The notes under the pieces were generated by a model, which saw only the letters and a program-made list of their open reading frames with translations, had not been told where the DNA came from and ran no database searches. Positions 2,602 to 15,630 of a DNA stretch of 16,114 bases are shown here, piece by piece; positions within the stretch are counted from its first letter, which is position 1; every line of letters begins with the position of its first letter. This DNA comes from an uncultured Clostridia bacterium. Its GTDB lineage: Bacteria; Bacillota; Clostridia; Lachnospirales; Lachnospiraceae. A program made the position numbers and the translations under genes. The DNA is taken from assembly GCA_946623485.1 (NCBI GenBank), contig CAMORF010000015.1, positions 1 through 16,114 of the forward strand, written 5' to 3'.

Positions 2602-2658
2602 AAATACCCTTCCTCCTTTTTTAAAATACAACATAAATCAAATTTAGGATCTGCTCAT

Positions 2659-2684
2659 TAATAACTGTTCATAATAACTGTTTA
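2659..2684. repeat. 13-bp direct repeat, two copies
   Basis: TAATAACTGTTCA (2659-2671) is followed directly by TAATAACTGTTTA (2672-2684). It lies between the peptidase start and its presumed promoter, in the 5' untranslated region of the minus-strand gene. Confidence 0.75.
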
Positions 2685-2739
2685 TCTTTCTTGTATTTTT
2701 CTCCCGTCACACAGGGCAGGATTCGGTTACATAGTTAGT

Positions 2740-2787
2740 ATAAATCAAGTATAGCATAAATTAAATTCAGCATAAGTCAAGTAAAGC
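2740..2787. repeat. 16-bp tandem repeat, three degenerate copies
   Basis: Three consecutive 16-mers share the pattern ATAARTYAARTNNAGC: ATAAATCAAGTATAGC (2740-2755), ATAAATTAAATTCAGC (2756-2771) and ATAAGTCAAGTAAAGC (2772-2787). The array overlaps the most promoter-like sequence for the peptidase, so copy number could change promoter spacing. Confidence 0.7.
2748..2785 (-). promoter_or_regulatory. Candidate promoter for the peptidase gene
   Basis: On the minus strand TGCTATACT is an extended -10 element (TATACT at 2748-2753 by plus coordinates). A TTGACT sits upstream in the repeat array but is ~21 bp away, too far for a good -35, so the call rests mainly on the extended -10. An alternative -10, TATGCT, with 16-bp spacing from the same TTGACT is also possible. 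The 5' leader would be ~140 nt. Confidence 0.3.
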
Positions 2788-2834
2788 CATAGACAATCAC
2801 ACCGGCGAAGCGGCTCCTCTTTCAGATATCATAG

Positions 2835-2864
2835 TGAATTTTTTCATCCCCTGTTTCATATAAT
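2835..2864 (+). promoter_or_regulatory. Candidate promoter for the beta-helix protein gene
   Basis: A perfect TATAAT lies at 2859-2864, with a weak -35-like TGAATT at 2835-2840 (18-bp spacing). It would give a leader of roughly 95 nt before the ATG at 2966. No operator or riboswitch was recognised between it and the gene; the rest of 2602-2965 holds only the repeats and promoters listed. Confidence 0.4.
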
Positions 2865-2965
2865 TTAATCCCCATCTAATGTTCAAAACACATTTTACAC
2901 AAATCATGGCGATATCTTAGGTTCATCCCAAGTGAAAGACAACAGATGAAAAGGGGGTATTGATC

Positions 2966-4720
2966 ATGAAGAAGAGAAATTGGATTGTTTGTTCATTATT
3001 ATCATTGTCACTGTCAGCGAATCTGGTGATGCCGGCTTTGGCGGAAAACACCGTGGCTTCTACCGAGACTGCACAGCGGGCTGACACAGAAGAGACAGCT
3101 GAGGATTCTTTAGGAGGAACCTCTGAAGATGTGGTTGCTTCCGGTGAAAATGGTGCCCCGGATGGCACAGAAAGCCTTGATGGAAATGCTTCGCCAGACG
3201 GCGCAGGCGGTCCCGGTGGAAGCGATGCACCTGATGGCGCAGGAGGCCCCGGCGGAAGTGGCGCTCCTGACGGCCCCGGAGGTCCCGGCGGAAGCGATGC
3301 GCCAGACGGCCCCGGAGGTCCCGGTGGAAGTGGTGCGCCAGACGGCTCAGGTGGTCCTGGCGGAAGTGGCGCGCCTGACGGCGCAGGCGGTCCCGGCGGG
3401 CAGGAGAGTGTTGAATATACTGCAGTGAATGAGGTCACCACAGATGCAGAGGAATTCACCGGCGCAATTGAATCGACCGGCACCGATGAGAACGCGGTTC
3501 TTGTAAGTGGAACAGATGCTTCCGCAACGGTTCGGGATGCTCAGGTTTCCAGAACAAGTGAAGATTCTGATTCCGGTAATACTTCAAGCTTTTATGGAAA
3601 TGCAGCTGCGTTGCTTGCGACAGATGGAACACTGTATGTAAAGGACAGTACCATTACAACAAACTCAGGAGGAGGCGCAGGCGCCTTTGCCTACGGAGAC
3701 GGAACGGTATATATTGCGAACACCTCGATCACGACAGAAAAAGGTACATCAGGCGGAATCCACGCGGCAGGCGGAGGCACCCTCTATGCCTGGAACCTGG
3801 ATGTTGCAACACAAGGCGGCTCTTCTGCGGCAATCAGGTCTGACCGGGGCGGCGGCACCATGGTGGTAGACGGCGGTACGTATACGACCGATGGAACAGG
3901 AAGTCCGGCAATCTACTCAACGGCTGACATCGCAGTCCATGATGCTGTTCTGACGGCAAATGACTCTGAAGCGACCTGTATCGAAGGATTGAATTCCATC
4001 CGCCTCTTTGACTGTGACCTGTCCGGAAACATGCCTGATGACAATGAGCAAAATGATGTTCTCTGGAATGTGATTGTCTATCAGTCCATGTCCGGAGACG
4101 CAGAAGACGGAAATGGTACATTTGAGATGGTTGGCGGAACCCTTACCGCGAAGCAGGGCGGGATGTTCTACACCACGAATACGCAGTCAACCTTCATATT
4201 GAATGGTGTCGATATCACTTATGCGGAGAATTCGGACTTCTTCCTTCGTTGTACGGGAAATGCAAATGGCCGTGGCTGGGGATCCTCCGGCGCGAATGGC
4301 GCAGATTGCACCTTTACCGGCATTGCACAGGAAATGGAAGGGGATGTGATCTGGGATCGGATTTCCAATCTTGACTTTTATGCTACCCAGAGTAGTATCC
4401 TGACCGGAGCGGTGACGGAGGATACCACCTATTCCGGTGGAGAAGGCGAGGGATATTGCAATCTGACCATCGATGAAACCTCGCAGTGGGTCGTAACCGG
4501 AGATTCAACATTGACGAACCTTCATTGTGCCGGAACAATCACAGACGCGGATGGAAACACGGTATCTGTCATTGGAACCGATGGAACCGTCTATGTGGAA
4601 GGCACCAGCCAGTATACAGTCACGGTTGACAATTACAGTGAAGATGTGGATCTGAGTGGCGCATCCGAAGCTGACAGCTGGGACAGCTATGCGGTGGAAC
4701 AACCTGCTGAATTAACATAA
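2966..4720 (+). CDS. Secreted repeat-linker / beta-helix-like surface protein
   Basis: A 584-residue exported protein of unknown function. The N-terminus is a classic signal peptide (MKKR, hydrophobic core, PALA before EN). Residues ~30-75 are Thr/Glu/Ala-rich. Residues ~79-145 are a 12-residue repeat of the type GAGGPGGSDAPD, which looks like a flexible linker. From ~190 to ~500 short beta-strand-like rungs recur (GTLYVKDSTITT, GTVYIANTSITT, GTLYAWNLDVAT, GTMVVDGGTYTT). These suggest a right-handed parallel beta-helix of the pectate-lyase-like or adhesin kind. I see no catalytic motif, LPxTG signal, SLH domain or C-terminal membrane anchor, so it may be released, or a tail may have been lost (see 4721-4976). 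The ATG at 2966 is preferred over TTG 2960 because GGGGG at 2953-2957 is 8 nt upstream. An adhesin or carbohydrate-binding role is inference. Confidence 0.75.
   Translation: MKKRNWIVCSLLSLSLSANLVMPALAENTVASTETAQRADTEETAEDSLGGTSEDVVASGENGAPDGTESLDGNASPDGAGGPGGSDAPDGAGGPGGSGAPDGPGGPGGSDAPDGPGGPGGSGAPDGSGGPGGSGAPDGAGGPGGQESVEYTAVNEVTTDAEEFTGAIESTGTDENAVLVSGTDASATVRDAQVSRTSEDSDSGNTSSFYGNAAALLATDGTLYVKDSTITTNSGGGAGAFAYGDGTVYIANTSITTEKGTSGGIHAAGGGTLYAWNLDVATQGGSSAAIRSDRGGGTMVVDGGTYTTDGTGSPAIYSTADIAVHDAVLTANDSEATCIEGLNSIRLFDCDLSGNMPDDNEQNDVLWNVIVYQSMSGDAEDGNGTFEMVGGTLTAKQGGMFYTTNTQSTFILNGVDITYAENSDFFLRCTGNANGRGWGSSGANGADCTFTGIAQEMEGDVIWDRISNLDFYATQSSILTGAVTEDTTYSGGEGEGYCNLTIDETSQWVVTGDSTLTNLHCAGTITDADGNTVSVIGTDGTVYVEGTSQYTVTVDNYSEDVDLSGASEADSWDSYAVEQPAELT
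3200..3400 (+). repeat. 36-bp in-frame tandem repeat in the secreted protein gene
   Basis: Five full 36-bp units plus a partial sixth encode GAGGPGGSDAPD, GAGGPGGSGAPD, GPGGPGGSDAPD, GPGGPGGSGAPD, GSGGPGGSGAPD, then GAGGPGG. Silent and Ala/Pro/Ser, Asp/Gly changes separate the copies, so the array is not brand new. The complementary strand reads as a Pro-rich collagen-like pattern, which is only a reflection of the repeat. Confidence 0.95.
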
Positions 4721-4727
4721 GTGCCAG

Positions 4728-4797
4728 CATCTAAGGAGCAAGCGTTTCAGGAGCAAGCGTTTCAGGAGCAAGCGTTTCAGGAGCAAGCGTTTCAGGA
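4728..4797. repeat. 15-bp tandem repeat after the secreted protein gene
   Basis: The unit AGGAGCAAGCGTTTC occurs four times in perfect tandem. Degenerate relatives (GCATCTAAGGAGC, GCATCTAAGAAGC) flank it to about 4840. In the frame of the upstream gene it would encode the pentapeptide EQAFQ. The perfect identity suggests recent expansion. Confidence 0.95.
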
Positions 4798-4910
4798 GTC
4801 AGCATCTAAGGAGCCTGCATCTAAGAAGCGAGCATCTAAGACCAGCCTCTGAAGCGCCTGTAGGTGAAGAAAGTGTTGATCTTAAGCCCCGACAAGGCGT
4901 AGAAAACTTC

Positions 4911-4939
4911 TTGACGGAAAGCCTGCAGGATGATAATAT
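4911..4939 (+). promoter_or_regulatory. Promoter of the trp operon
   Basis: TTGACG (4911-4916) and TAATAT (4934-4939) are separated by exactly 17 bp. The predicted transcript start, near 4946, lies about 40-50 nt before the T-box stem I, as expected for a T-box-regulated operon. No repressor operator was recognised. Confidence 0.65.
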
Positions 4940-4984
4940 TTATGCAATTCAACTGAATAACGCATCAAACCGTTGAAGCGGAGA

Positions 4985-5473
4985 AAAAGTGTATATGCTT
5001 TTCCAGAGAGTCCGGGATGCTGAGATCCGGACATAACACAGTACACGTAATATGGACCGCAGAGGGCGCTGTCAAAGGATCATCGTCAGGAATTACAGAA
5101 AGAAAATGACAGAGGGTCTGAGTATACAGCGACGTAAGGCACACGTTAGCTGCACAGAGTATGATGGTACTCCATAGTTGTAATCTATTCCGGTAAGCGG
5201 ATCAGACGACTGCTCCATTTTATGGAATCAAACGGAACAAGCCTGCATTGGACAACTCACTGCATTCCTTCCTGGTATTCCATGTATTGCATGGCAGCAG
5301 AAGGGATTGTTCCGGATCAGCCAGCTTGTGGCTTTCCGTTGCTTATTTCCTTGGAAAACCGGGTAGATGAAAACTGATAAAGCGTATGGCATAGCCATAA
5401 ATCAGGGTGGCACCGCGGATATATCGGATATTCGTCCCTGGCAGAGACAGATGATCTCTGCCAGGGACTTTTT
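4985..5473 (+). promoter_or_regulatory. T-box riboswitch, tRNA-Trp responsive (trp leader)
   Basis: The conserved T-box core AGGGTGGCACCGCGG is at 5404-5418; its AGGG can pair with CCCT (5436-5439) to form the antiterminator, which competes with the terminator. Upstream, stem I shows CAGAGAGTCCGG, a GCTGAGA distal loop and the closing CCGGAC (5004-5031), followed by TATGGACC. UGG at 5053-5055 is the likely Trp specifier codon. A CTGAGTA element and stem III (CAGCGACGT 5127-5135 with ACGTTAGCTG 5143-5152) follow. In the bulge UGGC the variable base is C, which pairs with a G discriminator base, the usual one in bacterial tRNA-Trp. Known mechanism: uncharged tRNA binds both sites and prevents termination. 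About 250 nt separate stem III from the core, far more than usual. Confidence 0.93.
5434..5473 (+). terminator. T-box-controlled intrinsic terminator
   Basis: A perfect 14-bp stem (GTCCCTGGCAGAGA 5434-5447, TCTCTGCCAGGGAC 5455-5468) with a 7-nt loop is followed by TTTTT. Its 5' arm overlaps the sequence that pairs with the T-box core, so the two structures exclude each other. The remaining 150 nt to trpE hold no further element that I recognise. Confidence 0.95.
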
Positions 5474-5624
5474 GCTTTACTTTTATTTTCTATTTGAGTG
5501 TATGAATACTTACTATGTGATTGATTTTTGAGCTGTGCTATCGGATGAAAAGACAAACAAGATATACAAGTTGTTTTGCGACAGATCCTTATCTCAATCC
5601 GAATGATAAAGGGGGGGAACAGAA

Positions 5625-7355
5625 ATGAATATAATGCCTGAATTGGAGCAGATACGGTCATATGTTGGGCGTTACCGTGTTTATCCGGTGAGTACGGAGA
5701 TTCTTTCAGATATGCGTACGCCACTGGAGGTTCTGCTGGCGCTGCAGAATGTATCGGATCATGTCTATCTGCTTGAATCCGTATCAGGACATGAGAATTG
5801 GGGACGTTACACTTTTCTCGGATATGATCCGAAGCTGGAGATCACATGCCAGTCGGGAATTCTCCGAATCCGCACATCCGATGCAAAAGATACCGCTGTA
5901 TCGGAAGGCAGTCAGTTCAGCGAGACAAAAGTTACCGCAGCATCGGAAGGCAGTCAGCTCAGTGAGACAAAAGTTATCGCGGCATCGGAAGGCAGTCAGC
6001 TCAACGAGACAAGAGTTACTGCGGCATCGGAAGGAAGTCTGCTCAGCGAGGCAAAAGCTACCAGTGCATCGGAAGCCAATCTGTGCATTGAGACCAATGA
6101 CCCGGGCAACTTCATACGCCGGATCATTGCTGCGCACAGGAGTCCGAAGGTAGAGAACCTGCCACCCTTTACGGGAGGACTGGTTGGATATTTCTCCTAT
6201 GATTATCTGAAATATGCTGAACCCGGCTTGCGGCTGGATGCGGAAGACGGAGATGGATTCAATGATGTCGATTTGATGCTGTTTGATAAAGTGATCGTCT
6301 TCGATAATTATCGGCAGAAGATGATCCTCATTGTCAACATGGAACTACCCGAAGAAAGAACCAAAGAGGGAGCTGAAGAAGCTATGAAAGAAGCCAGCAA
6401 AGAAGCCGAAGAAGATGATTTTCTTAAAAAATCTTACCAAAGAGCATGCCTTGCGCTTCAGGAGATGGCGGATCTGGTGAAGAAGGGGAGGATGATGCGG
6501 ATCAGCCCCGGGAAAATGACTTCACCGGTGCAGGCGTTGTTTTCTGAAGAGCAGTTCTGCGGCATGGTTGAGAATGCCAAGAGGCATATTTTTGAAGGAG
6601 ATATCTTTCAGGTTGTGCTCTCGAACCGGCTCGAAGCCAGGTATGAGGGGAGCTTGCTGAATACTTACCGGATTCTGCGGACTGTGAACCCATCGCCTTA
6701 CATGTTTTACTTTGCAAGCTCTGATCTGGAGGTAGCGGGGGCTTCGCCGGAAACCCTAGTCAAGCTGGAAGACGGCGTACTGTATACATTTCCGCTCGCA
6801 GGCACAAGGCCAAGAGGCAGGACGCCGGAGGAAGATCAGGCGCTGGAACAAGAGCTGCTCGCAGACCCGAAGGAGCTTGCAGAGCATAGCATGCTGGTAG
6901 ACCTTGGCAGAAATGATATAGGGAAGATTGCCGAATATGGCAGCGTGGAGGTAGAGAAAGCATTTCAGGTGGAACGGTTTTCCCATGTCATGCACATCGG
7001 GTCAACCGTGCGCGGGAGAATCAGCGAGGACAAGGACGCGCTTGACGCCGTGGCATCGATTCTTCCTGCGGGGACGCTGAGCGGCGCCCCGAAGATCCGG
7101 GCGATGCAGATCATCGATGACCTGGAAAACAACAAACGTGGAATCTATGGAGGTGCGCTTGGCTATCTGAGCCTTACCGGAAATCTCGATCTGTGTATCG
7201 CGATCCGGATCGCCTACAAAAAGAATGGGAAAGTATATATTCGCAGCGGCGCCGGCATTGTGGCGGACTCTGATCCCCGAAAAGAGTATCAGGAGTGCCT
7301 CAACAAGGCGCGGGCCGTCCTCGTCTCACTGGAAAAGGCGCAGGAGGAACTGTAG
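5625..7355 (+). CDS. trpE: Anthranilate synthase component I
   Basis: Makes anthranilate from chorismate with ammonia supplied by TrpG; first committed step of tryptophan synthesis, cytoplasmic. The N-terminal domain (residues ~1-230) contains LLES (49-52), the start of the Trp feedback-binding site, and PPFTGGLVGYFSYD. The C-terminal chorismate-binding domain is complete, with GDIFQVVLSNR, PSPYMFYF, GASPETLV, FPLAGTRPRG, HSMLVDLGRNDIG, LPAGTLSGAPKIRAM and RSGAGIVADSDP. At 576 aa it is longer than the usual ~500. The excess comes from a 14-residue tandem repeat (92-161) and a Glu/Lys/Ala-rich linker (~244-265), both in the N-terminal domain outside the catalytic core. The start is set by GGGGGGG at 5611-5617, 7 nt before the ATG. 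First gene of the operon, behind the T-box. Confidence 0.97.
   Translation: MNIMPELEQIRSYVGRYRVYPVSTEILSDMRTPLEVLLALQNVSDHVYLLESVSGHENWGRYTFLGYDPKLEITCQSGILRIRTSDAKDTAVSEGSQFSETKVTAASEGSQLSETKVIAASEGSQLNETRVTAASEGSLLSEAKATSASEANLCIETNDPGNFIRRIIAAHRSPKVENLPPFTGGLVGYFSYDYLKYAEPGLRLDAEDGDGFNDVDLMLFDKVIVFDNYRQKMILIVNMELPEERTKEGAEEAMKEASKEAEEDDFLKKSYQRACLALQEMADLVKKGRMMRISPGKMTSPVQALFSEEQFCGMVENAKRHIFEGDIFQVVLSNRLEARYEGSLLNTYRILRTVNPSPYMFYFASSDLEVAGASPETLVKLEDGVLYTFPLAGTRPRGRTPEEDQALEQELLADPKELAEHSMLVDLGRNDIGKIAEYGSVEVEKAFQVERFSHVMHIGSTVRGRISEDKDALDAVASILPAGTLSGAPKIRAMQIIDDLENNKRGIYGGALGYLSLTGNLDLCIAIRIAYKKNGKVYIRSGAGIVADSDPRKEYQECLNKARAVLVSLEKAQEEL
5898..6107 (+). repeat. 42-bp in-frame tandem repeat inside trpE
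   Basis: Five consecutive 42-bp units (5898, 5940, 5982, 6024, 6066) encode variants of ASEGSQLSETKVTA. The fifth unit is divergent (ASEANLCIETNDPG) and merges into the normal TrpE sequence, so it probably represents the parental segment. The array lies between the strand ending LRIRTSD and the helix NFIRRIIAAH, a place where TrpE proteins have a loop. Confidence 0.95.
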
Positions 7356-7388
7356 AAAGCAACCATGATCTGAAAGGAGGATCTGGAA

Positions 7389-7979
7389 ATGATATTACTG
7401 ATCGATAATTATGACAGTTTTTCTTATAACCTCTTCCAGATGGTCGGTGCGATTGCGCCGGACATCCGCGTGATCCGGAACGATGCGTACAGTGTAGAAG
7501 AGATTTTGGAAATGAAAGCGTCCGGCATTCTCATTTCTCCGGGGCCGGGCCGCCCGGAGGATGCAGGGATATGCATCGAGCTTGTGAAAAGAATGGAGAC
7601 GGAAGCGGGGAATGTTCCGTTGCTGGGGGTCTGCCTTGGACATCAGAGCATCTGCGCGGCCTTCGGAGCAAGCATCGGATACGCAAAACAGCTGATGCAT
7701 GGAAAAACATCCATGTGCCGGATGGATCAATCAAGCCCGCTGTTTGAGGGATTGGAGGAAATGGAGCAGGTTGGGCGTTATCATTCGCTTGCAGCAGATG
7801 AAGCAACCATGCCGGAGTGCCTGAAGATAACAGCAAGGACGGAGGACGGTGAGATCATGGCGGTTGAACATCGACATATGCCGATATATGGAATTCAGTT
7901 TCATCCGGAATCCATCCTCACTCCACACGGCGGGAAGATTCTGGAGAACTTTATCCATATGCTGCGGTATTCGGCATGA
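7389..7979 (+). CDS. trpG: Anthranilate synthase component II (glutamine amidotransferase)
   Basis: Class I glutamine amidotransferase that hydrolyses glutamine and passes ammonia to TrpE. It is 196 aa, the normal length. The catalytic triad is visible: C82 in GVCLGHQS, H172 and E174 in FHPES. The oxyanion region SPGPGRPEDAG and N-terminal LLIDNYDSFSYNL are typical. It is a separate subunit, not fused to TrpE or TrpD. It could in principle also serve aminodeoxychorismate synthase, as in some Bacilli, but no pab gene is in the window. A strong AAAGGAGG (7373-7380) sits 8 nt before the ATG; the gap to trpE is 33 nt. Confidence 0.95.
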   Translation: MILLIDNYDSFSYNLFQMVGAIAPDIRVIRNDAYSVEEILEMKASGILISPGPGRPEDAGICIELVKRMETEAGNVPLLGVCLGHQSICAAFGASIGYAKQLMHGKTSMCRMDQSSPLFEGLEEMEQVGRYHSLAADEATMPECLKITARTEDGEIMAVEHRHMPIYGIQFHPESILTPHGGKILENFIHMLRYSA

Positions 7980-7984
7980 GGTCG

Positions 7985-8001
7985 CACCGGCGAAGCTGGT
8001 G
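7985..8001 (+). other. Small hairpin between trpG and trpD
   Basis: CACCGGC, GAA, GCTGGTG can fold into a 7-bp stem (one G-U pair) with a three-base loop, just after the trpG stop. There is no T-run, so it is not a normal terminator. The 12-mer CACCGGCGAAGC occurs again at 2800-2811. It might be a small dispersed element or an mRNA processing hairpin. Confidence 0.3.
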
Positions 8002-8051
8002 ACGGAGTCCTGGTGCCATAAGAGGTAAACGAGAAACGGAGGAGGGTGAAA

Positions 8052-9077
8052 ATGATTAAGGAAGCAATTATTAAAATAGTGGATAAGCAGGATCTGACTT
8101 ACGAGGAAGCATACAGTGTCATGAATCAGATCATGAGCGGTGAGACTACGCCGACACAGAATGCGGCTTTTCTGGCGGCGCTTTCGACCAAATCAACAGG
8201 CGCGGAAACCATCGATGAGATTTCCGGCTGCGCCAGCGCCATGCGGGAAAAGGCTACGCCGATGGATCATCCGGGCATGGAGGTGATGGAGATCGTCGGG
8301 ACAGGCGGTGACAATGCACACACCTTCAACATATCGACAACAAGCGCATTTGTCCTCGCAGCAGGAGGAGTGAAGGTTGCAAAACACGGCAACCGTGCTG
8401 CGTCTTCGGATTGCGGGACGGCAGACTGCCTGGAAGCCTTGGGGATCAATATCCAGCAGGATCCCGACATGTGCCGGAGGCTGTTGGATGAGGTTGGCTT
8501 CTGTTTTATGTTTGCGCAGAAATATCACACGTCCATGAAGTATGTGGGCGCAATCCGCAGGGAACTTGGCATCCGCACCGTATTCAATATCCTGGGACCT
8601 TTGACCAACCCGGCCCGTCCGGATTACATGCTGCTGGGGGTCTACAGCGAAAGGCTGGTGGCCCCGCTGGCGAAGGTTATGATCAGCCTTGGCGTGAAGC
8701 GTGGTATGGTTGTCTATGGCACGGACCATCTGGATGAGATTTCCATCAGCGCTCCTACTGTTATCTGCGAATTCCGGGATGGCTATTACCGCGACCTGAC
8801 CATCCAGCCGGAAGACTTTGGACTTACCACGGCAACGAAGGAAGCGATTGTGGGAGGCACTCCGGCGGAAAATGCCCAGACGGTCCGTGGCATCCTCTCC
8901 GGCGCTGTCACCGGCCCGAGGCGTGACATTGTCCTGATGAATGCAGGGGCAGGCCTGTTCATTTCCGGAAAAGCGCAGAATATGCAGGATGGTGTCCGGC
9001 TCGCTGCGCAATTGATCGACAGCGGCGAGGCACTCAGGAAGGTGGATGATATGATCCGTGTATCTACGGCTCGTTAG
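8052..9077 (+). CDS. trpD: Anthranilate phosphoribosyltransferase
   Basis: Transfers the phosphoribosyl group of PRPP to anthranilate, second step of the pathway. It is 341 aa, usual length. Family motifs are intact: GTGGD (83-87) and NIST (93-96) for PRPP/Mg, KHGNR (111-115), GVRRG-like [15 protein letters not shown] in the C-terminal half, and LGPLTNP. The ATG at 8052 is preferred to GTG 8046 because GGAGGAGGG (8038-8046) overlaps that GTG and is correctly spaced for the ATG. No insertion is seen in this gene, in contrast to trpE. It lies 72 nt after trpG. Confidence 0.96.
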
Positions 9078-9152
9078 TCGATTTGACTAAGGAACTGTTG
9101 AAGAAAATGAAAAGAAAGTACGATCAAGAAGCATGAGGAGGGCGGGGAAGAT

Positions 9153-10010
9153 ATGACGATACTGGATGAGCTGGCGGCATATGCCGGAATCCGGGTGGAG
9201 AGAGCAAAGGAAAATGTGCCCCTTGAAGTGGTCAAAGAACAGGCGCTGGCATGTGCCGATATGCAAAAAAACTGTCAACCTGGTACGGCTGGCTCCCCGG
9301 ATCAGGCAGCAATGACAGCGGTGACAGATCGCCCGGAATGGTTTGCGTTTGAAAAGGCACTTGCAGGGCCGGGCATTGGCTTTATCTGCGAGGTGAAAAA
9401 AGCCTCTCCCTCCAAAGGATTGATTGCTGCGGAATTCCCTTATGTTGAAATTGCAAAAGAATATGAAGCAGCAGGTGCCGAATGCATTTCCGTTTTGACC
9501 GAACCAAAGTGGTTTCTTGGAAGCGGCACATATCTGAAGAAAATTACCGAAAGCGTCAGGACTCCATGCATCCGAAAGGATTTTACCATAGACGAATATA
9601 TGATTTATGAGGCAAAACTTCTTGGGGCAGGCGCAGTGCTGTTGATTTGCTCTTTACTTGATACAAAACAGTTGGAGGCATACATTCGTATAGCGGATCG
9701 CCTTGGCCTCTCTGCTTTGGTGGAAGCGCATGATGCGGAAGAAATACGATCCGCAGTTGCCTCCGGCGCCAGAATGATTGGTGTGAATAACCGTAACCTG
9801 AAAGACTTTACGGTTGATGTTCGTAATTCACAAAATCTCCGGAAGCTGGTACCGGACAACATTTTGTTTGTCGCAGAGAGTGGAATACGGAATGCGGACG
9901 ATGTGCGTGCCATGCGTGAAGCAGGTGCCGATGCCGTTCTGGTCGGGGAGACGCTGATGCGTGCACGGGATAAAACACAGATGCTGCATTTGCTCAGGGG
10001 AACAAATTGA
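9153..10010 (+). CDS. trpC: Indole-3-glycerol phosphate synthase
   Basis: Ring closure of the carboxyphenylamino-deoxyribulose phosphate made by TrpF to indole-3-glycerol phosphate. A TIM barrel with the expected catalytic residues: E80 and K82 in CEVKKASPSKG, K142 in RKDF, E191 in LVEAHD, N212/N213 in GVNNRNL, E242 in AESGI. At 285 aa it is ~25 longer than the common 255-260. The excess appears to be a Gln/Ala/Thr-rich stretch (residues ~33-60) between the N-terminal helix and the first barrel strand. GAGGAGGGCGGGG precedes the ATG closely. It lies 75 nt after trpD; its 3' end is the first element of a tandem array. Confidence 0.96.
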   Translation: MTILDELAAYAGIRVERAKENVPLEVVKEQALACADMQKNCQPGTAGSPDQAAMTAVTDRPEWFAFEKALAGPGIGFICEVKKASPSKGLIAAEFPYVEIAKEYEAAGAECISVLTEPKWFLGSGTYLKKITESVRTPCIRKDFTIDEYMIYEAKLLGAGAVLLICSLLDTKQLEAYIRIADRLGLSALVEAHDAEEIRSAVASGARMIGVNNRNLKDFTVDVRNSQNLRKLVPDNILFVAESGIRNADDVRAMREAGADAVLVGETLMRARDKTQMLHLLRGTN

Positions 10011-10143
10011 AAGAAAGTATGTGAAATCGAAAGGAACAACCTGAAAGAAAGCACGTGAAATCCAAAGGGGCGGCCTGAAGGAAAGTATGTAAAATTCAAA
10101 GGGGCTGCCTGAAAGAAAGCACGTGAAACCGAAAGGGACAATT
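10008..10143 (+). repeat. 34-bp tandem array in the trpC-trpF spacer
   Basis: Four contiguous 34-bp units start at 10008, 10042, 10076 and 10110, each of the form TGAAAGAAAGYAYGTGAAAY followed by YSAAAGGRRCNRCC. The first three bases of unit 1 are the trpC stop codon. The bases before that stop (AGGGGAACAAAT) resemble the end of each unit (AAAGGAACAACC and relatives), so the array seems to have grown from the trpC 3' end. Each copy contains an AAAGGRRC purine block resembling a ribosome binding site. Confidence 0.95.
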
Positions 10144-10168
10144 TGAAGAAGACCTGGGGAGCTAAGAG

Positions 10169-10789
10169 ATGTCTGATATTAGGAGGAAAGAGGTACGGGT
10201 GAAAATATGCGGGCTGAGGCGGCCGGAGGATATCAGGATTGTGAACGAGGCAATGCCTGATTATGCAGGCTTTATTCTGGCTGCAGGCCGCAGGCGTACC
10301 GTCACCCCGGAGCAGATGGCAGAGCTGTCATCCGGACTCACCCCGGAGATCTGCAAGGTGGCAGTGTTTCTGAATCAGGATCCGGAGTGGATCTGCAGCC
10401 TCGCGCAAAGGGGCCTTATGGATGTGATCCAGCTGCATGGATCGGAGTGTGAGGATGAGATTCTGATGCTTCAGAAAAAGACCGGAAAAAAGGTGATCAA
10501 AGCATTCCGGATTGACACGGAGGAGGATGTCCGTGCAGCTGAGGCATCTTCTGCGGATTGGATTCTTCTGGATCATGGCATGGGCGGAACGGGGGAGATG
10601 TTTGACTGGTCTTTGCTTCAGATGATTTCCAGGCCGTTTTTTCTTGCGGGTGGCCTTTCCCCGGAAAATGTGCGGGAGGCGATTCGGAGAACGTGTCCGG
10701 CGGGAGTGGATGTCAGTACGGGTGTGGAAAGTGATGGCTGGAAGGATGCAGTGAAGGTAAGTGAATTTATGCGGCAGGTACGAGGCTGA
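10169..10789 (+). CDS. trpF: Phosphoribosylanthranilate isomerase
   Basis: Isomerises phosphoribosylanthranilate for TrpC. It is 206 aa, typical. The N-terminal strand VRVKICGL carries the general base C14, and D135 in ILLDHGMGGTG is the general acid. LAGGLSPENV and GVDVSTGVESDGWKD are the phosphate-binding end of the barrel. The ATG at 10169 has GGGGAG 7 nt upstream. An alternative GTG at 10199 would give the canonical short start (MKICGL), with AGGAGG at 10181-10186 but a long 12-nt spacing. Both are possible, so the first ten residues are uncertain. It is preceded by the 34-bp array and followed by the longest spacer of the operon. Confidence 0.95.
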   Translation: MSDIRRKEVRVKICGLRRPEDIRIVNEAMPDYAGFILAAGRRRTVTPEQMAELSSGLTPEICKVAVFLNQDPEWICSLAQRGLMDVIQLHGSECEDEILMLQKKTGKKVIKAFRIDTEEDVRAAEASSADWILLDHGMGGTGEMFDWSLLQMISRPFFLAGGLSPENVREAIRRTCPAGVDVSTGVESDGWKDAVKVSEFMRQVRG

Positions 10790-10841
10790 GTCAGCACCCC
10801 AGTGTTCAAGTGCTCAGACAGTCCAGCTTACGGCGACTGAG

Positions 10842-10874
10842 GGCGCTGCGTGCCAGTGGCACGCGGTTAGCGCC
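10842..10874. repeat. Bulged inverted repeat in the trpF-trpB spacer
   Basis: GGCGCT and GCGTGCC, a three-base loop (AGT), then GGCACGC, a four-base bulge (GGTT) and AGCGCC form a 13-bp stem with one asymmetric bulge. It is GC-rich and lacks a T-run, so it is more like a REP-type palindrome or mRNA stability element than a terminator. It lies 53 nt after the trpF stop. Confidence 0.7.
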
Positions 10875-10987
10875 GACCGGAGCGAAGCGTAGAACAACGC
10901 AGCAGATGAATTCAAGATGATGTTATTAATGCAAAAGTCATTGAGACGGGGCACTATGATCCTGCCGGGCGGAAAAGGGGCCAAAAG

Positions 10988-11131
10988 ATGTCTCAGGAGA
11001 TTCAGGGGCGGATGCATCGTATCCTGAAAATCGCAGGATTACAGGACCGGAATCACAGAATCACGGAATTACAAGATCGAAAACCACAGGGTGATAAGAT
11101 CAAGAATTCAGGATCGAAAACCACAGGATGA
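10988..11131 (+). CDS. Possible small ORF in the trpF-trpB spacer
   Basis: A 47-codon frame opens at ATG 10988 ([20 protein letters not shown]...) and ends at TGA 11129-11131. The frame is open back to about 10914, reading [19 protein letters not shown] before the ATG. This earlier part looks protein-like, basic and helical. The second half runs into the 37-bp array. I do not recognise it, the ribosome binding site (GGGGCC) is poor, and it could be a decayed gene end or chance. Confidence 0.2.
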
Positions 11132-11240
11132 TAAGATCAAGAATTCAGGATCGAAAATCACAGGATGATAAGATCAAGAATTCAGGATCGAAGATCATAG
11201 GATTACAAGATCAGGTTTACAGGATCGAAAATCATAGGGA
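11075..11240 (+). repeat. 37-bp tandem array upstream of trpB
   Basis: Three nearly identical 37-bp units (11075, 11112, 11149), a degenerate fourth (11186-11222) and a partial fifth begin GATCGAAAAYCACAGGRTGA and end AAGATCAAGAATTCAG. The last unit runs into the trpB ribosome binding site. Since 37 is not a multiple of three, the open frame that appears upstream of trpB (from 11128) is a by-product. Confidence 0.95.
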
Positions 11241-11256
11241 TGTCAAGGAGGGCAGT

Positions 11257-12456
11257 ATGGCTACAACAGCAGACGCAAAAGGAAGATTTGGCAGGTTCGG
11301 CGGGCAATATATCCCCGAAACGCTTATGAATGCAGTCATAGAACTGGATCAGGCATACACACATTTTAAGCATGATCCGGAGTTTCAGTCGGAGCTGTCA
11401 ACGCTTTTCCGTGAATATGCAAACCGCCCCAGCCCTCTTTACTATGCTGAAAAAATGACGCAGGATCTGGGCGGTGCAAAAATCTATTTCAAGCGGGAGG
11501 ATCTGAATTTTACAGGCGCTCACAAGATCAATAATGTCCTGGGGCAGGCATTGCTTGCGAAAAAAATGGGCAAGACGCGCCTCATCGCGGAAACAGGCGC
11601 CGGCCAGCACGGCGTGGCGACCGCGACCGCCGCCGCGTATTTTGGGATGGAATGTGTCGTCTTCATGGGAAAAACAGACACGGAACGCCAGGCCTTGAAC
11701 GTCTACAAAATGAAGCTGCTGGGCGCGGATGTTGTGCCGGTTACCAGTGGGACAGCAACTCTGAAAGATGCTGTCTCAGAAGCATTTCGCGAATGGACAA
11801 ACCGGATTGCGGACACGCACTACTGCCTTGGATCTGTCATGGGGCCGCATCCATTTCCAACCATCGTCAGAGATTTCCAGGCAGTGATCTCCCGGGAAGC
11901 CCGGGCACAGATCATGGAGGCGGAAGGACGGCTGCCTGACGCTGTGCTGGCTTGTGTTGGAGGAGGATCCAATGCCATCGGTTCCTTCTACCATTTCATA
12001 GACGATGAAAATGTACAGCTGATCGGCTGTGAAGCAGCGGGGCGGGGGATCGATACCTTTGAGACTGCAGCGACGGTAAGCACAGGAAGGCTCGGTGTCT
12101 TTCATGGGATGAAGAGCCTGTTCTGCCAGGATGAATATGGACAGATCGCGCCGGTCTACTCCATTTCCGCAGGGCTGGATTATCCCGGCATCGGCCCTGA
12201 GCACGCTTACCTGAACGAGATTCACAGGGCAGAGTATGTTCCGGTAACAGATGAGGAGGCCGTCCAGGCGTTTGAATATACCAGCAGGACGGAGGGAATC
12301 ATCCCTGCCATTGAATCATCCCACGCAATTGCGCATGCATTGAAGATCGCGCCTGCAATGAAGAAGGATCAGATTCTGATCGTAACAATTTCCGGCCGCG
12401 GCGATAAGGACTGCGCAGCAGTAGCGAGATATCGAGGCGCATCGATAAAAGACTAA
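11257..12456 (+). CDS. trpB: Tryptophan synthase beta chain
   Basis: PLP enzyme that joins indole and serine to give tryptophan; works as an alpha2-beta2 complex with TrpA through an indole tunnel. It is 399 aa, the normal TrpB1 length. [13 protein letters not shown] is the typical N-terminus. K90 in [11 protein letters not shown] is the PLP Schiff-base lysine, E112 in AETGAGQHG the catalytic Glu, and [10 protein letters not shown] the PLP phosphate loop. The ATG at 11257 has AAGGAGGG (11245-11252). An in-frame ATG at 11128 would add 43 repeat-derived residues and has no ribosome binding site, so I reject it. The C-terminus RGASIKD is also the first unit of the following array. Confidence 0.97.
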
Positions 12457-12577
12457 GGTCGGGTATTACGAGGCGAATCGATAGAAGATTCAGGCACAGC
12501 ATAATGAGGCGAATCGATAGAAGATTCAGGCACAGCATAATGAGGCGCATCGATACAAGATTCAGATACAGCATTCA
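12434..12577 (+). repeat. 36-bp tandem array from the trpB 3' end into the spacer
   Basis: Four 36-bp units start at 12434, 12470, 12506 and 12542. Unit 1 contains the last codons and stop of trpB. Units 2 and 3 are almost identical (GAGGCGAATCGATAGAAGAT then TCAGGCACAGCATAAT). Unit 4 is intermediate. In the trpB frame the units read RGASIKD-stop, RGESIED, RGESIED, RGASIQD, with TAA TGA closing units 2 and 3. The trpB C-terminus has thus been copied three times downstream of its own stop. Confidence 0.95.
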
Positions 12578-12607
12578 GAGGAAATGAAAGAGGGAAGCGT
12601 GATCCTT

Positions 12608-13450
12608 ATGAGCAAAATTCAGGAAGCCTTCGCGAATGGAAAGGCATTTATCCCATTTATTACAGCCGGATATCCGGACATTGAGACGACCAGAAGTGTG
12701 ATCAAGGCGATGCAGGAGAACGGAGCGGATCTGATTGAGATCGGAATTCCATTTTCCGATCCCACTGCGGAAGGGCCGGTCATACAGACTGCCAATGTCG
12801 CTGCGCTGGAGCGTGGAATCACAACGGATCAGATATTTGACTTTGTACGGCAGCTGCGGGAAAATGATCATATCACAGTTCCAATGGTTTTTATGACGTA
12901 TGCAAATGTGGTATATTCATACCATGAGGGCGGGGATGCTCCGGCGGACGGGGCAGATGGAAAAGATCTTGGATGCTTTGGCTTTTGCCGAAGATGCGCT
13001 GAGGCCGGGATCGATGGATTGATCCTTCCGGATGTTCCATATGAGGAAAAGGGGGAATTCCAGGAAGCCTGCGAAAAAGCCGGGATCGATCTTATCTCGC
13101 TGATTGCCCCGACCAGTGAAGAACGGATTCAGGCAATCGCAGCGGATGCGCGCGGATTTATCTACATCGTATCTTCCCTGGGGGTGACCGGCGTACGTAA
13201 AACGATTACGACCGATATCGGCGCGATTACCCGTAAAATTCGATCAGTCACGGATGTTCCCTGCGCTGTGGGATTCGGCATCTCCACGCCGGAGCAGGCG
13301 GCCGCGATGGCAGCACAGTCCGATGGCGCAATCGTTGGTTCCGCCATCATCCGCCTGATTACACAGCATGGGGATAATGCACCCGTTGAAGTCGGGAATT
13401 ATGTCAGGCGCATGAAAGACGCGCTGCGCAGCAGCTACTATACAGTATAA
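12608..13450 (+). CDS. trpA: Tryptophan synthase alpha chain
   Basis: Cleaves indole-3-glycerol phosphate to indole and glyceraldehyde 3-phosphate, passing indole to TrpB. It is 280 aa from the chosen start (usual ~265). AFIPFITAGYPD, E44 in LIEIGIPFSDP (catalytic Glu, E49 in Salmonella) and the phosphate loops (SSLGVTGVR, GFGIS) are present. In DPTAEGPV the position of Salmonella D60 is Glu (E55). Residues ~106-122 (HEGGDAPADGADGKDLG) are an acidic Gly/Asp insertion between VVYSY and CRRCAEAGIDGLILPDVP, absent from typical TrpA. The ATG at 12608 fits the family start (MSKIQEAF). ATG 12584 has AGAGG only 2 nt away and adds eight atypical residues, but cannot be excluded. Last trp gene. Confidence 0.95.
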   Translation: MSKIQEAFANGKAFIPFITAGYPDIETTRSVIKAMQENGADLIEIGIPFSDPTAEGPVIQTANVAALERGITTDQIFDFVRQLRENDHITVPMVFMTYANVVYSYHEGGDAPADGADGKDLGCFGFCRRCAEAGIDGLILPDVPYEEKGEFQEACEKAGIDLISLIAPTSEERIQAIAADARGFIYIVSSLGVTGVRKTITTDIGAITRKIRSVTDVPCAVGFGISTPEQAAAMAAQSDGAIVGSAIIRLITQHGDNAPVEVGNYVRRMKDALRSSYYTV

Positions 13451-13467
13451 GATTCAGGCATGATGCA

Positions 13468-13503
13468 CCGACAGATACGCCGATAGATACTCCGATAGAG
13501 ATG
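13468..13503 (+). repeat. 12-bp tandem repeat after trpA
   Basis: CCGACAGATACG, CCGATAGATACT and CCGATAGAGATG follow one another exactly, 17 nt after the trpA stop. The rest of the 172-nt spacer to the next gene holds no promoter or terminator that I can support, so the following genes may be co-transcribed with trp. Confidence 0.75.
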
Positions 13504-13622
13504 TGCCGGCAGCGCCGCGGGATGGATGGAATTTCACATGTCGTGTAACGGACTTCACGCCGTGGAGCAGGCTTTCATTCGCAACGAAGAAGATAGAGAA
13601 GAATAAGAAGAGGATTGAGAAC

Positions 13623-14480
13623 ATGTTTCGGGAAGAAACCGTAGAAGAATTATCAGACGGAAAGCTGTATACAGCAAATGACCTCGTAAGGATCGGCACG
13701 AATGATTGCCATGGCTGCACAGATTGCTGCAAAATGGGCCCCGTGATTGTACTTGATCCTTTGGATGCATTTGAGCTCAACCGGTTTCTGCCCCAGCGTT
13801 TTCATGAATTGGCAGGGAAAACGGTTGAGTTCAAGGTGATTGACGGGCTGATTCTGCCGATCCTGAAGCTTGTTCCTGCTCCTGAATCCGTTGGCGCAGA
13901 TGGTTCCGCAGCTTCCGCCGGTTCCTCAGAACGGACAGGCGCCGCAGCTTCCGCCGGTTCCTCAGAACGGACAGGCTCTGCAGATGCCGCCGGCCTCGCG
14001 GATCAGGCAGGCTCTGCGGCATCCGCCTGTTCTGCAGAGCCTGCCGGTTTCACAGATCCCGCAGAACCGATGGTCTGCCCGTACCTTGGGCAGGACGGGC
14101 GGTGCAGCATTCATGAGTTTCGCCCGGGCATTTGCCGCATGTATCCCCTTGGCCGCAGTTGGGAAAACGGTGATTTTCATTATATTTTGCAGGTAAATGA
14201 ATGTACGCATTGTACAGGAACCAAGATCAAAGTGAAAAAATGGCTTGGGATTCCAAACCTTGGCGCGTATGAGGATTTTTGCCGCAGCTGGCACGGCTTG
14301 CTTGAACGGGTCAGGCATCTTCTTGAGGGGGAGAATCCGGCGGGCTCTTTCTACCAGCAGGTTTGTACCTACCTTTTGCGCCAATTTTATCTTTGCGACT
14401 GGGATGTGGACGATTTCTATACCACTTTCGAAGAACGCCGTAAGGATGCGCTCTCATATCTTGGATTTACAACATTATGA
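13623..14480 (+). CDS. YkgJ-like CxxCxxCC cysteine-cluster protein
   Basis: Putative zinc- or iron-chelating protein of the YkgJ/UPF0153 type; the biochemical role of the family is poorly known. C29, C32, C35 and C36 (CHGCTDCC) form the family cluster, with further Cys at C152, C161 and C171 in VCPYLGQDGRCSIHEFRPGIC, the usual second half of the site. At 285 aa it is longer than the typical 120-250. Residues ~96-143 are an Ala/Ser/Gly-rich tandem repeat placed between ILPILKLVPAPE and the second Cys block. The C-terminal ~100 residues (KWLGIPNLGAYEDFC onward) are helical and seen in longer clostridial members. ATG 13623 has AGAGGA 8 nt upstream; the longer frame from 13503 has no such signal. 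Its stop overlaps the moaA start by 4 bp (ATGA), implying coupled translation. Confidence 0.85.
   Translation: MFREETVEELSDGKLYTANDLVRIGTNDCHGCTDCCKMGPVIVLDPLDAFELNRFLPQRFHELAGKTVEFKVIDGLILPILKLVPAPESVGADGSAASAGSSERTGAAASAGSSERTGSADAAGLADQAGSAASACSAEPAGFTDPAEPMVCPYLGQDGRCSIHEFRPGICRMYPLGRSWENGDFHYILQVNECTHCTGTKIKVKKWLGIPNLGAYEDFCRSWHGLLERVRHLLEGENPAGSFYQQVCTYLLRQFYLCDWDVDDFYTTFEERRKDALSYLGFTTL
13908..14051 (+). repeat. 36-bp in-frame tandem repeat inside the YkgJ-like gene
   Basis: Four 36-bp units start at 13908, 13944, 13980 and 14016. The first two are nearly identical (AASAGSSERTGA, AASAGSSERTGS). The third and fourth are diverged (ADAAGLADQAGS, AASACSAEPAGF). It is flanked on both sides by conserved family sequence, so it is an expanded linker. 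Confidence 0.95.
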
Positions 14481-15553
14481 TTGATCAAAATGGACGCAGC
14501 ATCGATTATGTGCGAATCTCTATTACCGACAGATGCAATCTGAGATGCATCTATTGTATGCCGGAGGAAGGGGTCTGCAGAATAGAGCATGCACAGATCC
14601 TGCGCTTTGAAGAGATTATACGCGTTGTTCGGATATTAACCGAAGTGGGTGTGAAGCATGTCCGGCTGACTGGCGGAGAACCGATGGTTCGCAGAGGATG
14701 CCTGGAGCTGGCTGCGCGTCTTCATGCAATCCCCGGAGTCGAAAGTATCTCTATGACCAGCAATGGCATTTTGCTGAATGACAGGGTTCACCAGGCAAAG
14801 CTTGCAGGGATTTCTTCTCTGAATATCAGTATGGATGCCTTGGATCCTGCCGTCTATTCCCGTGTGACCCGGGGCGGAGATGTCAGTCTGGTTTTGCGTG
14901 TGCTGGAACAGGCATTGGAAGAGGGCTTGAATGTCAAGGTGAATACGGTTCCGGTCAGAGGCATCAATGAAGACGACCTGCCCGGCATTGCAGCCCTCGC
15001 GCGGGAGGCGCCGCTGTGTGTCCGGTTCATCGAATTGATGCCGGTGGGATACGGGATGCAGGCTGAGCGGATTCCGTACGCAGCTGAGCGGGTTCCGTAC
15101 ACAGCTGAGAGGACTTCGTACGCAGCTGAGCGGGTTCCGCACGCAGCTGAGAGGACTTCGTACGCAGTTGAGCGGATTCCGTACGCAGAGGTGGCGAAGA
15201 TTCTGGAGGAGGCTTTTGGAGCGCCAGCCGTGGATGCACGAATACATGGACATGGGCCTGCACGTTATGTAACGTATCCGCATTTCAAGGGCTCTGTCGG
15301 ATTTATCAGTGCCATCAGCCATGAGTTCTGTGATTCCTGCAACAGGGTACGCCTGACTGCCGACGGACAGCTGAAGCTATGCCTGAATCATACGAAGGGG
15401 CTTGATCTGCGTGCCATGCTCCGTAGGGGAGCGGATGACGGGGAGATTCTGGATGCGGTGCGCAGCGCAATCGCAGAAAAGCCGAGGCGGCATGGGTTTT
15501 ATGAGACGATCGGTGATCATGAAACGCGGACCATGAACGCGATCGGTGGTTAG
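14477..15553 (+). CDS. moaA: GTP 3',8-cyclase (molybdenum cofactor synthesis)
   Basis: Radical SAM enzyme for the first step of molybdopterin synthesis, converting GTP to the 3',8-cyclic intermediate used by MoaC. The N-terminal [4Fe-4S] site is C20-x3-C24-x2-C27 in DRCNLRCIYCMP. The second, GTP-binding cluster is C285, C288 and C302 in FCDSCNRVRLTADGQLKLC. RLTGGEPMVR is the SAM 'GGEP' motif, and the C-terminus ends in the conserved Gly-Gly (MNAIGG). It is 358 aa against ~325 usual; the difference is a 7-residue repeat at 196-237. Start ATG overlaps the stop of the preceding gene. No other moa gene is visible, so the rest of the pathway lies elsewhere. Confidence 0.95.
   Translation: MIDQNGRSIDYVRISITDRCNLRCIYCMPEEGVCRIEHAQILRFEEIIRVVRILTEVGVKHVRLTGGEPMVRRGCLELAARLHAIPGVESISMTSNGILLNDRVHQAKLAGISSLNISMDALDPAVYSRVTRGGDVSLVLRVLEQALEEGLNVKVNTVPVRGINEDDLPGIAALAREAPLCVRFIELMPVGYGMQAERIPYAAERVPYTAERTSYAAERVPHAAERTSYAVERIPYAEVAKILEEAFGAPAVDARIHGHGPARYVTYPHFKGSVGFISAISHEFCDSCNRVRLTADGQLKLCLNHTKGLDLRAMLRRGADDGEILDAVRSAIAEKPRRHGFYETIGDHETRTMNAIGG
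15062..15187 (+). repeat. 21-bp in-frame tandem repeat inside moaA
   Basis: Six exact-length 21-bp units encode AERIPYA, AERVPYT, AERTSYA, AERVPHA, AERTSYA and VERIPYA. It interrupts MoaA between RFIELMPVGYGMQ and EVAKILEEAFG. The last unit continues smoothly into native sequence (IPYAEV), suggesting that it is the parental copy. Units alternate between two subtypes (ERVPxA and ERTSYA), hinting at a 42-bp higher-order duplication. Confidence 0.95.
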
Positions 15554-15604: not shown

Positions 15605-15620
15605 TCTCATGTGCTATGAT
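15591..15620 (+). promoter_or_regulatory. Candidate promoter for gtrA
   Basis: TTGAGT (15591-15596) and TATGAT (15615-15620) are 18 bp apart, and TGC directly before TATGAT makes an extended -10. Transcription would start near 15627, only a few bases before ATG 15631, which would give a nearly leaderless mRNA. Confidence 0.45.
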
Positions 15621-15630
15621 ACCCCTCGTT

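Follow-up and report, generated by a model that had tools for sequence, protein, structure and literature searches.

Why should a single bacterial stretch carry so many short tandem arrays that bear little resemblance to one another, both between genes and inside enzymes? The stretch analysed here (the window, 16,114 nucleotides) is the entire contig CAMORF010000015.1 (G000:C15) of a metagenome-assembled genome (MAG) from an uncultured member of the Lachnospiraceae, a 2.45-Mb assembly of 390 contigs that is 73% complete, and it contains a tryptophan (trp) operon and moaA. An earlier note, made from the sequence of the window, had put forward either a strong local tendency to duplication or slippage that is filtered by selection, or a mechanism that generates diversity in spacers and linkers. 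We compared the arrays of the window with those of the rest of the genome and of related genomes. The arrays are best read as local tandem duplications of ordinary host sequence that arose independently of one another, and it is probable that recurrent local duplication, followed by gain and loss of units and filtered by selection for reading frame and protein fold, produced them.

Array density in the genome and its relatives

Arrays were called with Tandem Repeats Finder (TRF), overlapping calls were merged, and a score of at least 50 was used unless stated otherwise. This yielded ten merged arrays in the 16.1-kb window, while 100 dinucleotide shuffles of the window gave a mean of 0.02 arrays per shuffle and a maximum of one. 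Every unit length listed in the earlier note (12, 13, 15, 16, 21, 34, 36, 37 and 42 bp) was recovered by TRF. For the rest of the genome we sampled 40 other stretches totalling 456 kb, namely the 20 longest of the remaining contigs, truncated to 20 kb, plus 20 shorter contigs. These held 84 arrays, or 1.84 per 10 kb (95% interval 1.47-2.28), and shuffled contigs of the same genome held 5 arrays in 353 kb.

The samples available from relatives were small, and those of G012, G026, G007 and G017 were left out of the density comparison because they were masked or shorter than 5 kb. Same-genus samples contained 57 arrays in 555 kb (1.03 per 10 kb), G004 and G006 together 22 in 220 kb (1.00), same-family samples 16 in 213 kb (0.75), two order-level genomes 10 in 80 kb (1.25) and Escherichia coli K-12 1 in 50 kb. 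Density in the genome under study was thus 1.8 times that of the pooled same-genus samples (p = 1.8e-4), and it was also above that of the family (p = 5e-4). Arrays of at least three copies numbered 32 in 456 kb, compared with 20 in 775 kb for the pooled genus (a 2.7-fold difference, p = 4e-4) and 2 in 213 kb for the family. Per 10 kb of non-coding DNA there were 8.1 arrays in the genome, 2.45 in the genus, 2.43 in G004 and G006 and 2.6 in the family, and the corresponding values for coding DNA were 1.06, 0.85, 0.82 and 0.53. The excess therefore lies mainly in spacers and hardly in genes.

A dense stretch met by chance in an ordinary clostridial background would offer a simple explanation. 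One order-level and one family sample (oG046 and fG025) did reach 1.75-2.0 arrays per 10 kb, and the window is itself a tail, with 10 arrays where the density of its own genome predicts 3.0 (Poisson probability 0.001, for a window that had been picked by a reader). However, the excess over genus and family belongs to the genome as a whole and chiefly to its spacers, and trp loci from named genomes (80 loci, four or more of the same genus) averaged only 0.59 arrays per 10 kb (79 in 1.35 Mb), the richest being L080 (4.7), L035 (3.7), L069 (3.3) and L083 (3.0). We regard the chance explanation as unlikely. Locus L080, which is titled Kiritimatiellae bacterium, encodes a TrpE 64% identical to that of the window and has 10 tandem arrays in 21 kb.

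Counts on individual contigs of the genome were over-dispersed (chi-square 31.7 on 19 degrees of freedom), with a maximum of 8 arrays in 18.3 kb. The genome is therefore array-rich, and the window is its dense end. The 13-kb region singled out in the earlier note is not special in kind, given that second contig with 8 arrays. The note had also held that a density like that of ordinary Clostridia would remove the idea of an active process; the genome proved to be denser than the relatives sampled.

Reading frame and protein domains

Gene calls were made by a simple method that takes the longest open reading frame (ORF). In the genome sample, 39 of the 84 arrays fell in ORFs, 40 in spacers, and 5 spanned boundaries. 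Unit length was divisible by three for 37/39 arrays in ORFs and for 11/40 in spacers (Fisher p = 2.6e-10). The same pattern was seen in the other same-genus samples (coding 40/42, spacer 3/12) and in the family samples (coding 9/10, spacer 1/6).

All four in-gene arrays of the window that score at least 50 also have units divisible by three. These are a 36-bp unit present in 5.8 copies in the part of a secreted protein that is rich in Gly, Pro and Asp (3192-3399, plus strand), a 42-bp unit (14 aa) in 4.6 copies inserted in the N-terminal part of TrpE (5884-6075, plus strand), a 36-bp unit (12 aa) in 2.4 copies in the linker of a CxxCxxCC (YkgJ-like) protein (13902-13993, plus strand), and a 21-bp unit (7 aa, AERIPYA) in 6 copies in MoaA (15062-15188, plus strand). 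A weak 12-bp array of 2.7 copies (TRF score 43) lies in a second linker of TrpE (6376-6407, plus strand). With respect to phase-variable contingency loci, the in-gene units of the window preserve the reading frame. Among the remaining six arrays of the window, three have periods that are not divisible by three (16, 37 and 68, the last being twice 34). The rule that in-gene units are whole multiples of three is strong in this genome, and spacer units are free of it. The placement of arrays inside housekeeping enzymes holds for TrpE and MoaA; TrpB proper, which the note had also named, is free of arrays, and two of the four gene-borne arrays are in proteins that are not housekeeping enzymes.

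A Pfam scan of 30 of the 33 array-bearing ORFs gave 24 with matches above the cut-off, and these hold 28 arrays. Judged on the best Pfam-matched stretch only, and ignoring overlaps of up to 3 residues, 26 of the 28 arrays fall outside the matched domain, in agreement with the loop placement suggested earlier. The other two lie in a SecDF-like membrane segment and, as an insertion, in a PUA domain of a methyltransferase; two further arrays that overlap matches below the cut-off (L120:15093 and L131:10148) were not counted. Proteins that host arrays include PolA (DNA polymerase I), FtsK, GlgB (glycogen branching enzyme), CoaE (dephospho-CoA kinase), a cobalt chelatase, a RarA-like ATPase and FtsQ. 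The array in PolA (residues 326-353) falls within or next to a region (starting at about 310-340 and ending at 400-445) that is unaligned in the matches of most relatives, with a few (G016, G013, G008, G004 and G006) extending into or beyond it. In a separate observation, a 21-bp tandem array in a single ORF at L127:1746-3725 (minus strand) separates an alpha/beta hydrolase domain from a periplasmic binding domain, possibly a fusion across a repeat linker.

Independent origin of the units

Comparison of 94 arrays (the genome sample and the ten of the window) gave only 4 matching pairs at E <= 0.01, essentially bearing out the claim that the units are unrelated. Searched against the 456-kb sample and the 20 trp-region loci fetched from relatives, none of the window arrays had a match at E <= 1e-3. 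A dispersed repeat family, in which the same unit would occur at many loci, was rejected on these grounds.

Several of the trp spacers of the window are made largely of arrays. A 34-bp unit in 3.9 copies (10002-10148) starts in the final codons of trpC, continues into the trpC-trpF spacer and takes up 138 of its 158 bases. Upstream of trpB, a 37-bp unit in 4.6 copies (11066-11238) occupies 173 of the 467 bases of the trpF-trpB spacer and stops 18 bp short of the likely start of trpB (11257). A 36-bp unit in 4.1 copies (12429-12574) begins 25 bp before the stop codon of trpB, so that its first copy takes in the last codons and the stop, and it fills 118 of the 151 bases of the trpB-trpA spacer; a 13-bp array (12552-12579) lies at its end. 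Outside these spacers, a 16-bp unit in 3.2 copies (2736-2787, TRF score 55) separates the genes for an M3 peptidase and the Gly-rich secreted protein, a 15-bp array (4723-4840) starts 2 nt past the stop codon of the latter, and a 12-bp unit in 2.7 copies (13468-13499, TRF score 50) lies between trpA and the gene for the CxxCxxCC protein.

In other trp operons of the genus, the equivalent spacers and loops hold different units or none. G002 has 29-bp units between trpC and trpF and 91-bp units from the end of trpF into the trpF-trpB spacer, G008 has 14-bp units after trpA, G015 has 56-bp units after trpA and 34-bp units further on, G016 has 21-bp units inside trpF, and G011 has 52-bp units after the CxxCxxCC gene. 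No array scoring at least 40 was found in the fetched trp genes and spacers of G004, G005, G006, G010 and G012. In G005 the matches to trpC and trpF are 7 bases apart, compared with the 158 bp of the window.

Turnover and constraint of the units

Copy number was compared at the protein level, using homologues P0001 and P0122, which are listed with no source and which we take from their identity to be of the same species. Among the best 120 of 3983 homologues of MoaA, 105 are 323 aa long. The protein of the window is 358 aa, equal to five extra 7-aa units, and P0001 (344 aa) has three extra units, two fewer than the window, and is identical outside the array. A count of amino-acid repeats gave 0 of 120, an understatement by at least one since its threshold misses the repeat of P0001. 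Relatives hold the AERIPYA-array segment once (for example QAERIPYGEVAK in P0009), indicating that the unit was amplified in place. On the solved MoaA structure 1tv7, the insertion falls at a break in the alignment between chain residues 201 and 215.

In TrpE, the array is missing in 18 aligned relatives, P0121 and P0122 excepted. P0121 is 576 aa long, as in the window, and has the array and one substitution elsewhere. P0122, at 526 aa, is shorter by 39 aa (about three units) in the array and by 11 aa in the second linker, and shows six substitutions relative to the window, one of them at the edge of the array. The second linker carries an unrelated 15-aa repeat in P0126 and an 11-aa repeat in P0136. 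Aligned to anthranilate synthase 5kck, the insertion lies at an alignment break between query residues 80 and 157. The linker of the CxxCxxCC protein is variable among aligned homologues and is unaligned or different in 17/18 same-genus relatives; its array recurs in P0241, which has substitutions elsewhere, and P0245 has an unrelated 10-aa repeat of its own. At the place of the array in the Gly-rich secreted protein, orthologues have other repeats of 18-84 bp. Copy number, which the note had proposed to check across strains, is therefore not fixed (358 against 344 aa in MoaA, 576 against 526 aa in TrpE), and the differences between nearly identical proteins make turnover look recent.

Arrays in a short-read MAG may be artefacts of assembly. 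The assembly is split into 390 contigs, and one homologue of MoaA (P0038), identical over its extent, breaks off within the array. Against this, copies differ from one another within most arrays (TRF match 72-92%, the identical 15-bp core described below excepted), the arrays of TrpE and the CxxCxxCC protein recur in P0121 and P0241 alongside substitutions elsewhere, and assembly cannot yield a frame rule or an avoidance of domains. An artefact is extremely improbable.

The ratio dN/dS between units was 0.95 for TrpE and 1.9 for MoaA (few sites), and 0.13 for the Gly-rich secreted protein (3192-3399). The inserts in TrpE and MoaA look like tolerated filler, and their units show no sign of amino-acid constraint. 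The repeat of the Gly-rich protein is, as judged from these substitutions, kept by selection, an ordinary low-complexity region that is different in kind from the arrays of the two enzymes.

These values bear on the second proposal of the earlier note, a dedicated or selected mechanism that diversifies spacers and linkers, for example to tune operon expression or enzyme properties. In its favour, the same spacers and loops are hit by arrays in different species, and the array of the secreted protein is under purifying selection. Spacer arrays in the other genus samples, trp loci included, are also found near the 3' ends of genes more often than expected (15 against 10.8) and near 5' ends less often (5 against 10.6). 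In the genome under study, however, spacer arrays show no clear link with gene ends (3' ends, 13 against 9.8 expected; 5' ends, 12 against 10.3), and a preference for 3' ends, at which the trp loci had hinted, was not borne out there even though the other genus samples lean toward it. Moreover, the units are largely unrelated to one another, those of the window are not found in relatives, and the enzyme units lack constraint. We consider a diversity mechanism very unlikely. The first proposal of the note, a raised tendency to duplication filtered by selection, fits the density, the frame rule, the position of 26/28 arrays outside domains and the differences in unit number.

Birth of duplications and the repair genes

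The preferred account, recurrent duplication filtered by selection, can be set out in four steps. Duplications of about 12-70 bp would arise anywhere in the genome at a raised rate. From two copies on, units appear to be won and lost, presumably through slippage or unequal exchange, giving rise to the differences in unit number between nearly identical genes. Selection would purge duplications that disrupt the reading frame or the fold of a domain, a step visible as a pattern, such that survivors in genes are whole-codon units in linkers, loops and termini and spacers take units of any length. Finally, copies would drift, as seen for the two genes trpE and moaA, whose units are free of amino-acid constraint.

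How the first copy arises was approached through perfect two-copy duplications. In the genome under study the mean flanking extension was 4.5 nt (n = 22), compared with 0.71 nt for a blunt null. When cases with diverged neighbouring copies were set aside, 11 isolated ones remained with a mean of 2.2 nt (six of 0, two of 1, and one each of 2, 7 and 13), and three of these (extensions of 1, 7 and 13) sit within longer arrays in the TRF list. Isolated cases elsewhere extended 0, 0, 1, 2 and 3 nt in the genus and 0, 1, 1, 2, 5 and 7 nt in the other samples.

Several findings weigh against the preferred account. The eight clearest two-copy duplications extended by 0, 0, 0, 0, 0, 0, 1 and 2 nt, which is near the blunt null and lends no support to slippage between short direct repeats as the mode of birth; this sorting was post hoc, the numbers are small, and TRF stretches one of the eight (L122:10332) by 9 nt across an indel. 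No repair defect that would account for a raised rate was found on examining mutS1, mutL and recJ. The frame rule is not seen in G004 and G006 (coding 12/16, spacer 4/6), and the window array at 11066 weakly resembles one at L120:14941 (73% over 67 nt). Most arrays are also imperfect, with a mean unit match of 84% in coding sequence and 89% in spacers, and are therefore not fresh.

The duplications may alternatively reflect a repair-deficient lineage, in which lost or weakened mismatch repair, RecJ, or hairpin or flap processing lifts the rate. SbcD had no match in the own genome and none above the cut-off in G014 (68% complete), and both genomes are rich in a dispersed element with palindromic forms (see below). 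However, mutS1, mutL and recJ are present above their cut-offs with open frames, as is a second MutS-type gene; the loss of mutS, mutL or recJ that the note had suggested looking for is rejected, as is a mutator arising from lost mismatch repair. SbcD above the cut-off is also missing in 7/19 same-genus genomes, among them G018, which is 94% complete and has an ordinary density (0.92 arrays per 10 kb), and the two genomes at issue are incomplete. The absence of SbcD is a lead and no more, and a repair deficiency is doubtful.

We regard as similarly doubtful a further proposal, in which short tandem duplications arise independently of homology and at a raised rate in this species and possibly in G014. 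Births would lack flanking direct repeats, in a genus in which Ku was not found. Our estimate for this route was lowered slightly because three of the 11 isolated cases were set aside. Ku-type end joining as the source of duplications was rejected, as Ku was found in 0/19 same-genus genomes, several of them incomplete.

A dispersed 76-bp element and other features of the window

The spacer upstream of trpE contains one copy (5513-5588, plus strand; 93% identical) of a 76-bp dispersed element. In the own genome, 49 places are within 3 mismatches of the 40-base core of the element, 43 of them identical, and an 80-base query gave at least 52 matches; G014, whose TrpE has the highest single identity of the genus (83%), gave at least 47, many partial. 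Both counts are lower bounds, from scoring 40 first-look candidates. One match was found in G015 and none in the other 16 genus genomes searched. In the sample, 7/11 full copies have the same triplet, TTA or TAA, on both sides, as a target duplication would leave, and some copies form a palindrome of about 160 bp together with a diverged partner in inverted orientation. By these features the element appears to be MITE-like (resembling miniature inverted-repeat transposable elements). A second subfamily in L120, L127 and L181 (for example at L181:2112, reverse complement) shares the 3' half but not the 5' half, a hint that the ends are modular. The element was rejected as the source of the arrays, although two arrays of the sample (L122:3824 and L129:154) do contain pieces of it. 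The own genome and G014, both incomplete assemblies, combine the lack of SbcD over the cut-off with many copies of this palindrome-forming element.

The window opens with 600 nucleotides that hold no ORF of at least 60 aa and are perhaps degraded genes or remains of a mobile element. The M3 peptidase gene (601-2634, minus strand) is followed by that of the Gly-rich protein (2960-4720), judged by eye from its N-terminus to be secreted. The genes trpE, trpG, trpD, trpC, trpF, trpB and trpA span 5625-13450 (trpE, 5625-7355), trpG being named by eye and trpE from PDB matches. The start of the CxxCxxCC gene was taken at 13621, and moaA (14477-15553) and a GtrA-like gene (15616-16110) complete the window. 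Upstream of trpE, positions 4964-5442 (plus strand) match a T-box leader (RF00230) at 82 bits and E = 4e-18, where the gathering score is 93, and more than 150 additional nt lie in the middle of it; an Rfam scan of the window at gathering scores gave no match.

Comparison with known repeats

The closest published parallels are the tandem repeats of Borgs and the satellite-rich prokaryotes; among the papers listed in literature searches, none dealt with tandem repeats in Lachnospiraceae spacers. According to the Borg report (PMC9879509), 43-65% of the repeats are in ORFs, in-ORF units are all divisible by three, as are 14-38% of intergenic units, and units are nearly all unique, of independent and recent origin, and fast evolving. 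Here, too, about half of the arrays are in ORFs (39/84), in-ORF units are divisible by three (37/39) and intergenic units are mostly free in length (11/40 divisible). The same report describes repeats that, unlike those studied here, are perfect, A-rich and often accompanied by partial flanking repeats, on an archaeal extrachromosomal element. Our own script, applying the perfect-copy definition given there, found 2 regions in 456 kb and 1 in the window, where 4.3 identical 15-bp copies within the more diverged array at 4723-4840 form the sole region perfect over at least 50 nt and three units. A Borg-like bias toward A or purines is weak in the spacers of the genome, with A at 30.5% in spacer arrays against 28.1%, and T is depleted in coding arrays (15% against 22%). 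Flanking partial repeats like those of Borgs were not seen at the eight clearest two-copy duplications (extensions of 0-2 nt), and mean extensions in the larger sets were 4.5 nt (22 cases) and 2.2 nt (11 cases).

A survey of satellites (PMC6749651) describes many unrelated satellites, as here, in Methanobrevibacter ruminantium and Clostridioides difficile. In the former, 36 satellites have long units; they are scattered, and at least half of them are non-coding. An approximate re-implementation of that search gave 17.5 satellites per Mb for the own genome (8 in 456 kb), compared with 6.4 in the genus samples and 9.4 in those of the family (2 cases), figures that are not strictly comparable with the published 9.3 (C. 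difficile) and 28.3 (M. ruminantium). The window arrays also share with minisatellites and variable-number tandem repeats (VNTRs) their head-to-tail units of about 10-100 bp, and MoaA and TrpE share the variable copy number between presumed close relatives. In PMC2884548, such 'small variable segments' likewise differ between close relatives and occur both in frame within genes and between them, the examples in Staphylococcus aureus being surface proteins, whereas here they are trp-operon spacers and TrpE, MoaA, PolA and similar enzymes.

Implications

The genome provides a chromosomal bacterial case of the Borg pattern, in which the raw process (in spacers), the frame filter (in genes) and the fold filter (in linkers) can be seen together, and sister species serve as replicates. 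Should a much larger set of cases also lack flanking repeats, the start of minisatellites here would not be explained by slippage in the usual way, and if homology-independent duplication did prove to be true, a separate route would be extending operon spacers and enzyme linkers faster than deletion trims them. For the enzymes themselves, inserts of tens of residues in core proteins of metagenomic bacteria can be neutral repeats.

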